Part shown: piece after piece, positions 7,179-21,080 of the stretch
How positions within the stretch are numbered: the stretch's first letter is position 1
Layout: each line of letters starts with the position of its first letter
From: Rhodopila sp.
Lineage (GTDB): Bacteria; Pseudomonadota; Alphaproteobacteria; Acetobacterales; Acetobacteraceae
NCBI GenBank assembly: GCA_031291715.1
Contig: JARLIN010000347.1
Span: 1 to 33,133, forward strand
Reading direction: 5' to 3'
Length of the DNA: 33,133 bases
The notes under the pieces: generated by a model
The model's input: only the letters and a program-made list of their open reading frames with translations
Told to the model about the DNA's origin: nothing
Databases searched by the model: none
Position numbers and translations under genes: made by a program

Positions 7179-7787
7179 TGGCCGGCCTCCGAGTCCTGGG
7201 ACCGCTCGCTTCAGACTTCATCTCGCAAAACACCGAACCGACCGCGGGATCGGGTCAATATCTTCGGGAAGTTCAAACGAGCAGATTTCGGTCATAAATA
7301 AAGTCACATTTCCCGCACAATCCGTTTCCATAATGGTGCGGCCCGAATGCCGCATTTGTTGGAATTTCGATGTCAAACCGAGTGTGGTTTTTGAGGCGGT
7401 TAGTTATTTAGTCTGACCATTTGCTGCCGCAGGACGCAAGTGACACTTTCCCATCGAGGAAACCGAGACAATCGCGAATGGCAATATAAAAATGCACAAA
7501 GGACGGTTGATGGCATGATTGTGTGTCTTATGATGATGTGCCGTTTTATATATCCCCGATTTATCTTCGAATCAGCAATGTCTTCGACATTTCCGGCTTG
7601 AAACCTGAAGGAAGCGATGAGCGCCACATTTTAGTGAGCAGGTGCAGCATGGACGGCATACGGCGGTTCGCCGCATCTTTCCCCGGTGTTTCGCCGCATT
7701 CTTTCCCCTTGGACGGACCCGCTCGTTTGCCCGGAGACAGGCCGCAGACGTACACTGCCGGCCAACAATGCCCCGGGGGACCCGCCC
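7179..7787. other. 609-bp divergent intergenic region, AT-rich in the middle
   Basis: It separates the exopolysaccharide set (minus) from the dehydratase gene (plus) and should hold promoters for both. Composition drops well below the genome average between about 7300 and 7650, with TA-rich runs near 7540-7570. The only open frames are short or are upstream extensions of the dehydratase frame; none has a believable protein. A direct repeat lies at 7667-7708. I could not assign confident -35/-10 boxes. Confidence 0.5.
7667..7708 (+). repeat. Imperfect tandem direct repeat upstream of the dehydratase gene
   Basis: TTCGCCGCATCTTTCCCC at 7667-7684 recurs as TTCGCCGCATTCTTTCCCC at 7690-7708, identical except for one inserted T. 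The period is about two DNA helical turns. It sits roughly 80-120 bases before the start codon at 7788, a position suited to a repeated regulator site, but it could also be a chance duplication. Confidence 0.55.
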
Positions 7788-8987
7788 ATGAAGATCGCAC
7801 GCATCGAGACGTTCCTGTTCGACCCAGGCACCGCCAAGAATCTGCTGTTCTGCCGCGTCGAAACCGAAAGCGGCCTCCACGGTTGGGGCGAGGCCTACGT
7901 CACCCCCGGCAAGGAACCGGTCATCGAACACCTGCTGCGTGACCTCGCCAAATACATGATCGGCCGCGACGCCTTCAGCATCCGCCACACCGCGCAGGTG
8001 GTGTTCGAGGATTTCGCCATGCGCCGCGCGTCGCTCGACCTGATGTCGGCGTGGAGCGCAATCGAGATCGCGATGTGGGATATCGTCGCCAAGCACGCCA
8101 ACCAGCCGCTGTACAATATTCTTGGTGGTGCCTCGCGGGAGCGTGTGAAGGTCTATGCCAACGGCTGGTCCAGTGGGACCGACAGCATCGAGCAGAACAT
8201 CGAACGCGCGCTGCTGGTGAAGGATATGGGCTACACCGCGCTGAAATGGGATCCGTTCCCCGGCCCCTGGCGCAGCTTCATCCACAAAGAAGATGAGGAT
8301 CACGTCGTCAACTACGTCCGACAGATGCGCGAAGCCCTCGGCCCGGACTTCACTTTGTTGGTCGAGGTCCATCGCCGCCTCGCACCGATGCACGCCATCC
8401 GCATCGGCCGGCGCATCGCCGAGTACGACATCGGTTGGTACGAAGAACCCTGCCTCTGTGACAACATCGAATTGGTGGCCGAGGTCCGTCGTGCCCTGCC
8501 GATGCCGATTGTGACCGGCGAAGCGATCTATTCGAAAGAGGGCTTCGCCGCGGCCCTGGCTGCCCGTGCGGCCGACATCATCAACCCGGACATTTGCAAC
8601 TGCGGCGGGATCACCGCCATGCTCGACATCGCCGCGATGGCGCAGCCGCACGCCGTGGGGGTCGCACCGCACAACTACAATTCCACACTCGTCGGCCTGG
8701 CGGCCACCGTGCAGCTGTCCGCCATGATCCCGAACTTCTGGATCGCGGAGTGCTTCATCAACCTCAAGCCCGCCTGTGATGAAATCGCGATGACGCCGCT
8801 GACGGTCCATGAAAGTTTCGTCGATCTGCCCACCACGCCGGGCATCGGCATCGACCTGGACGTGACCCGTTTGCGCGCCAAGCCCTACCGCGACATGGGC
8901 ACCCGCATGGGCAAGGGCCTACGTTCCTACACTGAGGAGTTCCCTCGCAAACACTACACCGTCGCCGCGACCCGGACGGGGTATTGA
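7788..8987 (+). CDS. Enolase-superfamily acid-sugar dehydratase (galactonate-dehydratase-like)
   Basis: A 399-residue mandelate racemase/muconate lactonizing family protein. Key residues keep exactly the spacing I recall for galactonate dehydratase: E193 and H195 (VEVHRR), E219 (YEEP), E245 (VTGEAIY) and H295 (APHNYNST), with D268 placed to pair with H295. The first metal ligand, normally Asp, is Glu193. The family removes the alpha proton of a sugar acid beside Mg2+ and eliminates water to give a 2-keto-3-deoxy acid; the actual substrate is not readable here. ATG at 7788 has GGGGGA 7 bases upstream; the longer open frame back to 7686 has poor protein character. The MFS gene follows 31 bp later, so uptake and catabolism of one compound is inferred. 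Confidence 0.88.
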   Translation: MKIARIETFLFDPGTAKNLLFCRVETESGLHGWGEAYVTPGKEPVIEHLLRDLAKYMIGRDAFSIRHTAQVVFEDFAMRRASLDLMSAWSAIEIAMWDIVAKHANQPLYNILGGASRERVKVYANGWSSGTDSIEQNIERALLVKDMGYTALKWDPFPGPWRSFIHKEDEDHVVNYVRQMREALGPDFTLLVEVHRRLAPMHAIRIGRRIAEYDIGWYEEPCLCDNIELVAEVRRALPMPIVTGEAIYSKEGFAAALAARAADIINPDICNCGGITAMLDIAAMAQPHAVGVAPHNYNSTLVGLAATVQLSAMIPNFWIAECFINLKPACDEIAMTPLTVHESFVDLPTTPGIGIDLDVTRLRAKPYRDMGTRMGKGLRSYTEEFPRKHYTVAATRTGY

Positions 8988-17428: not shown

Positions 17429-19594
17429 TCACCCCGCGGCCTTCGCCTCCCGCCGGCGGCGGTGCAGGATGAACTCGGTATAGCCATTCGGCTGCGTCCG
17501 CCCGTCGAAGATCAGGTCGGAGGCCGCCTTGAACGCCACGCCATCGAATCCCGGTGCCATCGGCTTATAGAGCGGATCGTCGGCGTTCTGCCGGTCCACC
17601 ACCAGCGCCATCCGCTTCAGCGCCTCGGTTACCTGCTCCTTGGTCACCACGCCATGATGCAGCCAGTTGGCGATGTGCTGTGAAGAAATCCGCAGCGTCG
17701 CCCGGTCTTCCATCAGGCCGACATCGTGGATGTCCGGCACCTTGGAGCAACCGATTCCCTGGTCGATCCAGCGCACCACGTACCCGAGGATGCCCTGGCA
17801 GTTATTGTCCAGCTCCTGCCGCAAATCGTCGGGTGACCAGTTCTGGCCTTCCGCCACCGGGATCGTCAGCAAGTCCTTCAATGCTGCCCGTTTGCGTGAT
17901 GCCAACTCGGTCTGCCGGGCGGCGACATCGACCTGATGATAATGCAGCGCATGCAGCGTGGCGGCGGTGGGCGAGGGGACCCACGCCGTGTTCGCCCCCG
18001 CCATCGGATGCGCGATCTTCTGCGCCAGCATGTCCGCCATCCGGTCCGGCGCCGCCCACATGCCCTTGCCGATCTGGGCCTTGCCGCGCAGCCCGCATTC
18101 CAGGCCGATATCGACGTTTTGGTCCTCGTACGCCTTGATCCAGGCGGTGCCGCGCATCTCGTTCTTGCGGATCATCGGCCCGGTTTCGATCGAGGTATGA
18201 ATCTCATCGCCCGTCCGGTCGAGGAAGCCGGTGTTGATGAACACCACCCGTGACGCCGCCGCCGCGATGCTGGCCTTGAGGTTCGCGGACGTCCGCCGCT
18301 CCTCATCCATGATGCCCATCTTCAGCGTGTTCGCGGCCAGGCCAAGGATACCTTCCACGAGCCCGAACAGATCGGCGGTCAGCGCCACCTCCTCCGGCCC
18401 ATGCATCTTCGGCTTGACGATATAGACCGACCCCGCCCGGCTGTTCTTGATCGGTCCCTTGCTGCTCAGGTCATGCATCGCGATCAGAGATGTCACCGCC
18501 GCATCCAGGAACCCTTCCGGGATTTCCGCGCCGGCCGAATCCAGCACCGCGTCCGTGTACATGTGATGACCGACATTCCGGACCAGCATCAGGCTGCGTC
18601 CGGACAGCCACAGGGTGCCGCCTGCCGGCTTGGTGTATTGCCGATCGGCGTTGAGCTTGCGGGTCATCTGTTGGCCACCCTTCTCGAAGGTGTCCTCCAG
18701 CGTCCCGTTCATCAAACCAAGCCAGTTGCGATAGGCGAGCACCTTGTCTTCGGCATCGACCGCGGCGATCGAGTCCTCGCAATCCTGGATCGTCGTCAGC
18801 GCGGCTTCCATGACCACATCCGCGACGCCGGCCGGATCGTCCTTGCCGATCGGGTTGGTGCGGTCGATCACAATCTCGAGATGCAACCCGTGATGCTTCA
18901 GCAGCACGATGGACGGCGCGGACGCCTCCCCGCGATACCCCGCGAACTGGGCCGCATCCTTTAAACCGGTGCTGCCGCCGCCTTTAAGGCTGACCGAAAG
19001 CGCCCCGTCCTTCACCACATAGCCAACGGCATCGGCATGGCTGCCGGTGGCGAGAGGCGCCGCACCGTCCAGGATTTCCCGCGCCTTCGCCACCACCCGG
19101 TCGCCACGGACCTTGTTGTAGCCGCGGCCTCGGGTCGCGCCTCCGTCCTCCGGGATCGCATCGGTGCCATACAGCGCGTCGTAAAGGCTGCCCCACCGCG
19201 CATTGGCGGCGTTCAACGCATAGCGGGCGTTGGTGACCGGCACCACGAGCTGCGGACCGGCGAGCGTCGCGATCTCCGCATCGACGTTGGAGGTGCTGAC
19301 CGCGACGGAAGCCGGCTCATCGACCAGATAACCGATGCTGCGCAGGAAGCTGAGATATCCCTCGGTGTCGGCCGGCTTGCCCTTGTTGCCCAGGTGCCAG
19401 GCATCGACCTGCGCCTGGATGCGGTCGCGCTTGTCCAAGAGCGCTTTGCAGCGCGGCCCCAGATCGCGCAGCAGCGCGGCAAACCCGCTCCAGAAGGCGT
19501 CGCTTCCTATCGAGGTCCCCGGCAAGGCTTCGCGGTTGACAAAATCGTAAAGCGGTTTGGCGATGCGGATACCGGCTGACTCGACATAATCCAT
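17429..19594 (-). CDS. glcB: Malate synthase G
   Basis: Condenses glyoxylate with acetyl-CoA to malate in the glyoxylate shunt. The 721-aa length is standard for the monomeric G form. Conserved stretches include [39 protein letters not shown] and the [18 protein letters not shown] region. Residues placed like the catalytic set of characterised enzymes are R339 (LVRN), E431 ([10 protein letters not shown]), D459 ([11 protein letters not shown]) and D630 (LMEDRATLR); C616 lies in [11 protein letters not shown] at 19594 has GGAGG 8-9 bases upstream, so the frame beyond it to 19768 is leader. No isocitrate lyase is in the window. A small RNA gene runs in the opposite direction about 185 bp upstream. 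Confidence 0.97.
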
Positions 19595-19744
19595 GCGGAC
19601 TGCCTCCTGCGGGGAGAGAAAAGCGGAATAAGCGATGGATATTGGATGGAATCCGGCGGTCTTGCCAGCCCTGGCCGGCGACGGCGGTATCGATGTCGCC
19701 ACGGGTCCAGGTGATAACCGCAAAAAACATGCACAAGCATGAGC

Positions 19745-19772
19745 TTGACAGGACGAGATGGCACCCAATGTC
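19745..19772 (+). promoter_or_regulatory. Candidate promoter of the small RNA
   Basis: A perfect -35 box TTGACA (19745-19750), preceded by C as in the alphaproteobacterial CTTGAC form, stands 28 bases before the first nucleotide of the RNA hairpin. The matching -10 region (about 19767-19772, AATGTC) is a poor match, so the promoter is supported mainly by its -35 box and position. Confidence 0.5.
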
Positions 19773-19778
19773 GTGAAA

Positions 19779-19854
19779 GCGGATGATGGCTAGGCCTCAT
19801 CCGCATGACGTTTCCCCCCCAAACTTAAGCGGCGCCTCCGGGCGCCGTTTTTTT
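19779..19854 (+). ncRNA. Candidate trans-acting small RNA (about 76 nt)
   Basis: This is an unannotated transcript-like unit. A 5' hairpin has an 8-bp perfect stem GCGGATGA/TCATCCGC (19779-19786 with 19797-19804), extended by GGC/GCC to a 3-base loop. It is followed by an unpaired TTTCCCCCCC tract (19811-19820) and A-rich linker. A textbook Rho-independent terminator closes it (19830-19854). A TTGACA box lies 28 bases upstream. No plus-strand gene precedes it, so the terminator needs its own transcript. The size and plan (hairpin, single-stranded pyrimidine tract able to pair with Shine-Dalgarno sequences, terminator with U tail) match Hfq-dependent alphaproteobacterial sRNAs. The suhB/MmgR (alpha-r8) family is a candidate by size, but membership is not shown. 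No function is assigned. Confidence 0.7.
19830..19854 (+). terminator. Rho-independent terminator of the small RNA
   Basis: CGGCGCC (19830-19836), loop TCCG and GGCGCCG (19841-19847) form a perfect 7-bp GC stem, followed by seven consecutive T (19848-19854). It is the only classic intrinsic terminator I saw in this window. Confidence 0.9.
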
Positions 19855-20105
19855 GTTTGATATCAAGTCATACCGACACCGACTCTCAGTCGGCTCCCTC
19901 CACGTCATGTCCGGCCTGGGTCCGGGCACCCGTTGCACCATGGTAAGTGGCTGTTCATCAATGAGTGATCTGGCACCGATGGCCGAATCAAGCCTCCGGC
20001 CATGGTGACCATGGGACAGCGGCCGCTGTGTCAGTCTTTGCACGAGCTTTGCGTTCGATCGCATGATTCCCGCGCTTCGGACGGTCCGCCCGGCGCGATC
20101 GGGCT

Positions 20106-21080
20106 CTAACCCCGGGGATGCGTCTTGCGCCAAACTGCAAGCAGCGCTGTGTCGTCCACCGCGGTGTATCGCTGGGTGGTGGACAGGCTGGCATGCCCCA
20201 GCAGATCCTGGATCGAGCGCAGATCGCTGCCGCTCGCGAGCAGGTGCGTGGCGAATGAATGCCGCAACGCGTGCGGCGTCGCATGTTCGGGCAACCCCGC
20301 GAGCCGGCGATAGGTCCGCAGCACCCGCTGCGCCACCGCCGGATCGAGCCGTTTGCCCCGCGCGCCCAGGAACAGCGGGCTGTCCGGCTGCGGCGCCGGA
20401 TGCAGGGCCAGGTAGGCCTCGATCGCCGCGCGCACCGCTGGCAGTACCGGCACGATGCGCGTTTTCGAGCCCTTGCCGGTGACGGTCAGTGACAGGTTGC
20501 TCCGCAGCGCGGTGGCGTCGCGCACGTTCAGTGCCAACGCCTCGGCGATGCGCAGGCCGCTGCCATACAGCAGCGAGAAAAACGCGATGTCGCGCGCCTG
20601 AAGCGCGGGATCGTCGGAGATATCGTCAACATGGCCGGTCACGTCGCGTGCCTGGTCGACCGTCAGGGCGCGGGGCAGGGCGGGACGTGCGCGGGCGGTG
20701 GAAACCAGACGCACCGCGGCGATATCGACCCCATGCCGCCGGCTCAGGTAGCGGAAGAAGCCGCGCAGCGCGGACAGATGCTGCGCGCGGGAGGACGCCA
20801 CCAGCTTGTCATTGGCCAGTGCGGCCAGCCAGGCGCGGATATCCGCCGCCCGTAAACCGGCCAACGCGGCCAGGTCGGGTTCTCCACCCAGATGCCTGGT
20901 CAGGAACCCGAGGAAGCCGGCCAGTGCGTGGCCGTATGCTTCGACGGTGTTGGCGGCGGCATGCCGTTCCTGTTCCAGCCAGCCCAGGAAGGCGGTGCGG
21001 GCGGCTTCGCCGGTCATCGCGGGGATCGGACCTGGCGTGGGCGGCGGCGACGGGCTTTGGGTGGTGGGACGGCGGCCCAT
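20106..21080 (-). CDS. xerC: Tyrosine recombinase XerC
   Basis: A 324-aa site-specific recombinase that with XerD resolves chromosome dimers at dif. All catalytic residues are present: R177 (GSGLRIAEAL), K203 (TGKGSKTR), H270 and R273 (HALRHSFATHLL), H296 (LGHASLSTTQ) and the nucleophile Y305 (QRYT). The N-terminal SAM-like DNA-binding domain spans about residues 25-115. The start is uncertain: ATG at 21080 gives a proline-rich N-terminus, and ATG at 21017 (MTGEAARTAF) begins directly at the domain and would be 303 aa, nearer the usual XerC length. Being chromosomal, single and next to housekeeping genes, it is more likely XerC than a phage or integron integrase. Confidence 0.92.
   Translation of the reverse strand: MGRRPTTQSPSPPPTPGPIPAMTGEAARTAFLGWLEQERHAAANTVEAYGHALAGFLGFLTRHLGGEPDLAALAGLRAADIRAWLAALANDKLVASSRAQHLSALRGFFRYLSRRHGVDIAAVRLVSTARARPALPRALTVDQARDVTGHVDDISDDPALQARDIAFFSLLYGSGLRIAEALALNVRDATALRSNLSLTVTGKGSKTRIVPVLPAVRAAIEAYLALHPAPQPDSPLFLGARGKRLDPAVAQRVLRTYRRLAGLPEHATPHALRHSFATHLLASGSDLRSIQDLLGHASLSTTQRYTAVDDTALLAVWRKTHPRG

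Follow-up and report, generated by a model that had tools for sequence, protein, structure and literature searches.

What kind of gene, if any, lies between malate synthase G and a xerC-like tyrosine recombinase in this Rhodopila genome? The initial annotation had proposed a small RNA (sRNA) gene, on the grounds that a TTGACA box, a hairpin, a C tract and a terminator with seven T follow one another on the plus strand, where no protein gene exists to use the terminator. All of these elements could be read directly in the window (the whole 33,133-nt stretch of DNA analysed, one contig of a 6.24-Mb, 545-contig genome), and both flanking genes are indeed encoded on the minus strand (Table 1). The terminator had also been described as a perfect GC stem; the stem and its T-run are present, but only 7 of 10 pairs are G-C. 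To these elements we could add a -10 element, of which the initial annotation gave none. A promoter scan of positions 19000-20600 returned no sigma70-type promoter (0 found vs 0.2 expected), so the TTGACA box does not lie within a good E. coli-type promoter. The sRNA region folds with a z score of -4.19, and 0 of 200 shuffled sequences were as stable. The scan listed the terminator stem for the minus strand as well, where the T tail is weak and interrupted. Judged by its sequence and its relatives, this is a real, conserved sRNA gene between glcB and xerC, a sibling of the alphaR8 (suhB/MmgR) sRNAs with a changed seed, hereafter type II.

Table 1. The predicted sRNA gene, its parts and its neighbours in the window.
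Feature	Position	Strand	Remarks
-35 element CTTGAC	19744-19749	+	read directly; overlapping TTGACA box at 19745-19750
-10 element CAATGT	19766-19771	+	exactly 16 nt 3' of the -35 element; part of CCCAATGT (19764-19771)
Predicted sRNA, ~77 nt	19778-19854	+	putative start 7 nt after the -10 element; based on promoter and terminator
Hairpin 1, 8-bp stem GCGGATGA/TCATCCGC	19779-19786 / 19797-19804	+	inner GGC/GCC
Seed UUUCCCCCCC	19811-19820	+	read directly
GUUU and AAAC	19810-19813 and 19821-19824	+	could close the seed as a C loop
Intrinsic terminator	19827-19854	+	stem 19827-19850; seven T at 19848-19854; terminator scan
Malate synthase G (glcB)	17429-19594	-	PF01274, PF20656, PF20658, PF20659; divergent neighbour
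Tyrosine recombinase (xerC-like)	20106-21080	-	PF00589, PF02899

Conservation was evaluated in Rhodopila-like Acetobacteraceae (hereafter the genus), in a sample that took in Acidisphaera sp. S103 as well as Rhodopila globiformis DSM 161, which carries the gene at L015/L039. The sRNA layout recurs in 33 loci, the window included, which come from 31 of the 33 genus genomes and two genomes of another genus. When 59 genomes were searched at the DNA level, 24, the window's own among them, had matches, a few of these being canonical siblings or terminators alone, and the first set comprised 24 relatives with the same layout as the window. Scanning named genomes for the exact core returned 26 stretches, 24 of which contain the type II gene, while L041 and L061 were dropped for want of the hairpin-terminator layout. 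These matches are mostly titled Acetobacteraceae, Rhodopila or Rhodospirillales, and the few titles such as Asaia and Nitrosovibrio look like mislabelled bins. The exact-core scan fixes the core by construction for L052, L054 and L062, but searches with R1, a covariance model built from type II alone, found all three again without that demand. Run over all 33 genus genomes, R1 had matches in every one; 80 further regions were read and 17 of the weakest places left out, so that copy counts are lower bounds. On this count type II occurs once per genome in 31 of the 33, and it was not found in G002 (80% complete) and G023 (68%). One rule, running from promoter to T-run, gives a predicted RNA of 67-82 nt in the 33 loci.

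A covariation analysis of the homologous gap in relatives, which the initial annotation had suggested as a check, disclosed compensatory changes in both stems. Across 25 aligned sequences, two-sided changes occurred in 13 of 19 pairs, namely 8 of the 9 counted pairs of hairpin 1 and 5 of the 10 of the terminator stem. Paired cells amounted to 93.2% (85.5% when shuffled) and two-sided cells to 47 (16.1 when shuffled); four measures were matched by 0 of 500 shuffles and a fifth by 7, and structures slid along the same alignment paired 37-55%. In a second alignment, 14 of 22 pairs had two-sided changes; it was weaker on two of the measures, which 4 and 49 of 500 shuffles reached. A small coding RNA was considered and rejected: the distance from the -35 element to the core ranges from 51 to 68 nt without a frame being kept, and the changes track base pairs.

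With ends trimmed to the predicted start and the T-run, all 33 RNAs fold as a hairpin, an open C run and a terminator, and the C run is unpaired in every minimum-energy fold. The mean unpaired probability of the 10-mer is 0.84 over the 33 loci (0.89 in the window) with trimmed ends and 0.62 (range 0.31-0.90) with untrimmed ends, and two early folds paired the C run with a 5' G-run. Variants with GAAC and AGAC keep the stem that closes the seed by means of U-G pairs. The predicted architecture is that of alphaR8, with a single-stranded core, less open in untrimmed RNAs, preceded by a hairpin and followed by an intrinsic terminator.

The initial annotation had compared the gene, with its C-run, to the suhB/MmgR (alphaR8) sRNAs, and had named RF00519 as the family to scan first. 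Relatedness and the C-run held up, but membership did not: the window scores 33.3 bits against a cutoff of 41 (E 3.1e-5 over 401 bases, 1.1e-4 over the whole genome), and no Rfam family matched at its gathering cutoff anywhere in the window. Likewise, 0 of the 27 type II loci scanned reached the RF00519 cutoff, 21 being listed at 24.7-39.8 bits. Homology was also observed in the opposite direction, as R1, built from type II only, matches canonical alphaR8 copies with up to 68.2 bits (L070; 59.1 bits for L249). The core of alphaR8 is given as the 10-mer UUUCCUCCCU in PMC12559287; the window core UUUCCCCCCC is identical in 8 of 10 positions and changed in two. Plain alphaR8 membership was therefore rejected, on the score below 41 and the missing UUUCCUCCCU 10-mer, and from its sequence type II is a relative of alphaR8 that stands outside the family by the two features tested, cutoff and 10-mer.

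The same paper describes SisA-D of Caulobacter as siblings with unrelated promoters, SisA as pairing its 10-mer upstream of the start codon and repressing, and CrfA as a sponge; it links alphaR8 usually to an N-formylglutamate amidohydrolase gene, extra paralogues excepted (PMC12559287). Type II has in common with these RNAs the 5' hairpin, the exposed 10-nt C/U core, the GC terminator and the existence of siblings with unrelated promoters. It differs in its UUUCCCCCCC core, a score below the Rfam cutoff, a conserved promoter pattern of its own, the single copy found per genome and, in the window, malate synthase and the xerC-like gene as neighbours in place of the amidohydrolase gene. Canonical alphaR8 copies sit in the same genomes, which makes type II a separate sibling. 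Two copies in the window's own genome exceed the RF00519 cutoff, scoring 57.2 and 42.4 bits. The stronger (L002/L003 at G000:C59), of the canonical type I, shares the GGACGUUUCC.CCC.AAACUU core and the terminator with type II, whereas type I has a CCUCCCU seed, another upstream region and often several copies, some in tandem. Among 92 cores read, 63 have CCUCCC (61 exactly CCUCCCU), 28 a run of C5-C7 and one neither (L332). The type II loci, which were sorted by this run, have C7 in 22, C6 in 9 and C5 in 2 cases. A C-run variant of alphaR8 was absent from the literature searched, mostly at the level of titles and the beginnings of abstracts; the alphaR8 phylogeny of Lagares (2016) could contain one.

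Further siblings appeared among the R1 matches. Canonical alphaR8 copies are closely paired at L037, L249, L255, L256, L260, L262, L263, L272, L279, L280 and L317, and G006 has 11 R1 matches in all. Weaker matches include a third alphaR8-like type, with core GGACUCCUCCCCAAACUU / CTTGGACTCCTCCCCAAACTTGGCG and a terminator, at 14 loci in 13 genomes (L289, L290, L293, L316, L318-L322, L327, L328, L330, L331, L333); two of these, both in G023 and near contig ends, may be one. A fourth type, with core UGACGUCUUCUCCCAAACUU / CTGACGTCTTCTCCCAAACTT and a common 5' part, is seen at three loci (L268, L275, L284). If the third and fourth are real, at least four seed types exist in this group. A sequence that resembles the type II core, TTTCCCCCCCCAAAC, also occurs at L102 (G000:C404:22881-22895, minus strand), in the apparent 3' trailer of a tRNA gene recognised by eye.

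The promoter separates the two main types as the seed does. All 33 type II loci contain CTTGA[ACT]-N16-C.AT.T with exact spacing, and 0 of 63 type I upstream regions do (chance about 1e-4 per 75 random nt). Since the types were sorted by seed, the promoter is independent of the sorting, while the counts of seeds in each type follow in part from its definition. The 8-mer of the -10 region reads [CG][AC]C.AT.T, in which C3, A5, T6 and T8 are invariant over the 33 loci. RpoH1 of Sinorhizobium meliloti recognises CTTGAA-N15-16-CCTATAT (PMC4843759). The window's CTTGAC-N15-CCAATGT agrees with this pattern at 10 of 13 positions, and the G004 and G027 loci match it fully. Upstream of heat-shock genes in the genus, the strict RpoH pattern was present at 3 of 30 hsp20 loci, weakly at one of them, and at 0 of the 21 clpB loci; by eye, clpB and some hsp20 genes have CTTGA[AG]-N15-CCCCA-like boxes, whose spacing exceeds that of type II by one base. 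The groES genes of the genus have CTTGAC-N17-TTAGAT, a sigma70-like arrangement, beside a CIRCE-like repeat. Alphaproteobacterial sigma70 can use CTTGAC too. We give the RpoH class about an even chance for the type II promoter, with sigma70 as the alternative.

Two side observations concern these upstream regions. At the groES loci L111, L114, L117, L118 and L120-L122, a CIRCE-like inverted repeat is accompanied by a second, similar repeat upstream (by eye). At the sRNA loci L247, L251, L252, L253, L274 and L303 (the last two by eye), the gene upstream has a stop codon that shares letters with the -35 CTTGA. The product of that gene has a DSIAAAA-like C-terminus and is a class-III aminotransferase at L247.

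Candidate targets were evaluated against 472 genes that a home-made gene caller found in 582 kb of the window's own genome. For type II, a seed pairing of -14 kcal/mol or stronger was predicted at 37 starts and 15 internal sites, compared with 29 and 3 for type I, 40 and 10 for the third type, and 13 and 8 for a permuted control. Because the canonical and third seeds are enriched as well, the enrichment at starts partly reflects the Shine-Dalgarno sequence. Type I and type II energies correlate at 0.85 over these genes and share 12 of their top 25, which indicates that the seed change shifts targets rather than separates them. In six genomes, GGGGGGAAA-N0-10-ATG had 50 matches, of which 7 are the antisense of the sRNA itself, compared with 2 when the pattern was reversed. 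The window's own genome contributes 15 distinct non-self sites, 12 of which lead a frame of at least 100 aa. These 12 candidates comprise three Peripla_BP_6 proteins, an ABC permease, an MR/MLE enzyme, a CoA transferase, a TPP enzyme, a GFO/IDH oxidoreductase, a hydrolase, a glyoxalase, a histidine kinase and one protein without a Pfam match. In the background, 5 of 472 genes are Peripla_BP_6-like (phmmer/hmmsearch, four queries), a share obtained by another method and so not measured alike. ABC binding proteins among the candidate targets are suggestive; the class was chosen post hoc, after the target list, and no P value is claimed for it.

Other searches of this kind were less specific. Allowing up to two mismatches, GTTTGGGGGGGAAAC occurs at 12 places of the own genome (2 for the reversed sequence); a perfect match occurs only at the antisense of the sRNA itself, and three places (C59, C404:4536, C473) hold cores of the canonical type on the other strand. 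The pattern GGGGGGGN{3,9}ATG is enriched over its reverse in many genomes, both of the genus and beyond it, and G7 before ATG is also enriched in genomes of other families that had no type II match in the DNA search (for example 20 vs 5 in G043, 23 vs 7 in G046). One candidate recurs: three loci from two genomes (L341, L367 and L382, the last by Pfam) have the same GGGGGGAAACATG ahead of a luciferase-like monooxygenase gene. The initial annotation had singled out the G-rich sites before a dehydratase and an MFS gene as possible partners of the C-run. Their predicted pairing proved unremarkable, with -14.4 kcal/mol in the dehydratase-side stretch 7740-7800 and -17.3 at the start of the MFS gene (the 5th percentile among 3000 stretches taken at random from the window), and two other starts in the window pair better (-20.0 and -19.8).

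The gene's surroundings vary. A neighbour in the glyoxylate shunt had tentatively been read as a clue to function, but glcB adjoins only 14 of the 33 type II loci, with xerC near 11 of these 14 within the DNA examined. Among the 19 other loci, 16 have enough flank (L264, L274 and L303 were excluded for short flanks), and in 13 of these the start motif of a VOC-type gene follows downstream in the same orientation; L251 has a VOC start by eye, L248 a similar unconfirmed one and L242 none. With glcB at 14 loci and VOC at most others, the neighbour says little on function, and glcB adjacency was rejected as a functional clue. The VOC position is also found in both loci of the other genus; it is therefore probably the older one, and the glcB position derived. 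These positions bear on whether the element acts in cis, as a leader or attenuator of the downstream VOC gene or as a terminator for xerC or glcB, and in most non-glcB loci the same-strand VOC gene downstream means that it may do so there. The 13 starts found by motif and the 14th by eye, Glyoxalase_3 matches in 4 of 4 VOC proteins tested and the minus-strand listing of the terminator stem, weak tail included, all fit such a role. We nevertheless consider it improbable as the general explanation, given that the window has no plus-strand gene 3' of the sRNA and both neighbours lie on the opposite strand, that 14 loci lack the VOC position, that the T-run is uninterrupted on the plus strand, and that promoter and seed are the same beside glcB and VOC neighbours.

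Other known families were compared as well. RF02651 (SorY, the Rhodobacter singlet-oxygen sRNA) matched both hairpins of the window with 33.2 bits (E 4.4e-5), and SorY is part of the RpoE/RpoHI/RpoHII network and acts on the mRNA of a malate transporter (PMC8307010). The two-hairpin plan and a C-rich single strand are common to both RNAs, yet the seed is different, the aligned hairpin 1 contains five non-standard pairs, and SorY appeared among the matches of 2 out of 13 type II loci in one scan (E 0.05) and of 0 of 17 in another (E 1). SorY membership was rejected, the gathering score being 111, and homology to SorY is highly improbable. AbcR1/AbcR2 (alpha-r15), which regulate ABC transporters and have partial SuhB homology, resemble type II in their C/U-rich anti-Shine-Dalgarno motifs (PMC7143759); they differ from it in being 114-120 nt long with three stem-loops, and no AbcR family was among the Rfam matches listed for the window and the type II loci scanned. 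That the arrangement is a silent relic or a product of chance is scarcely credible in view of the promoter spacing and compensatory changes kept. It is also unlikely, if less so than any of these, that type II is an ordinary alphaR8 sRNA with the targets and job of its canonical siblings, its C-run being seed drift. The E value of the RF00519 match, the correlated target energies, the canonical last U kept at the type II locus L251 (CCCCCU) and the known Caulobacter siblings with unrelated promoters (PMC12559287) speak for it; the family cutoff, which no scanned type II locus reaches, and a promoter pattern that splits as the seeds do, 33 of 33 against 0 of 63, speak against it.

The reading that we favour, and hold to be probable, is that the gene encodes an independent trans-acting sRNA, a diverged alphaR8/suhB sibling that uses its C tract to bind G-rich ribosome-binding sites and block translation. 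Transcribed from the type II gene's own promoter, an RNA of ~77 nt would end at the terminator. Its 5' hairpin and terminator would leave the C5-C7 tract accessible, perhaps in a loop that GUUU/AAAC closes, for pairing with G-rich ribosome-binding sites, the best fit being 5'-GGGGGGAAA just before ATG. Such pairing could block translation of some uptake and catabolic mRNAs, as SisA does in Caulobacter. Gene structure, conservation, covariation and homology are documented by the sequences themselves; from these we infer that the type II sRNA is transcribed, uses Hfq and represses its targets; with its target-binding letters now a C run, it probably turns down genes with G-run ribosome-binding sites. 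A bolder picture, which we regard as rather unlikely, is that of an alphaR8-derived sibling set with seeds diverged into separate C/U words (CCUCCCU; C5-C7; third CUCCUCCCC; fourth UCUUCUCCC), each under its own promoter. Type II would be its RpoH stress branch, a C-loop RNA shutting down uptake and catabolic genes with GGGGGG ribosome-binding sites, and G/A-rich sponges, CrfA among them, would be a poorer fit to its seed than to the canonical one.

For the family, the favoured reading of type II as a diverged sibling has two implications. A family cutoff can hide an alphaR8-like gene, as the 27 type II loci scanned against RF00519 illustrate. Moreover, a single 10-mer core is described as common to alphaR8 RNAs, and type II changes two of its letters, keeps the C-run throughout the genus and has its own promoter. 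Type II therefore provides a natural experiment on how sibling sRNAs divide their targets, whether through the letters of the seed or solely through the timing of synthesis.
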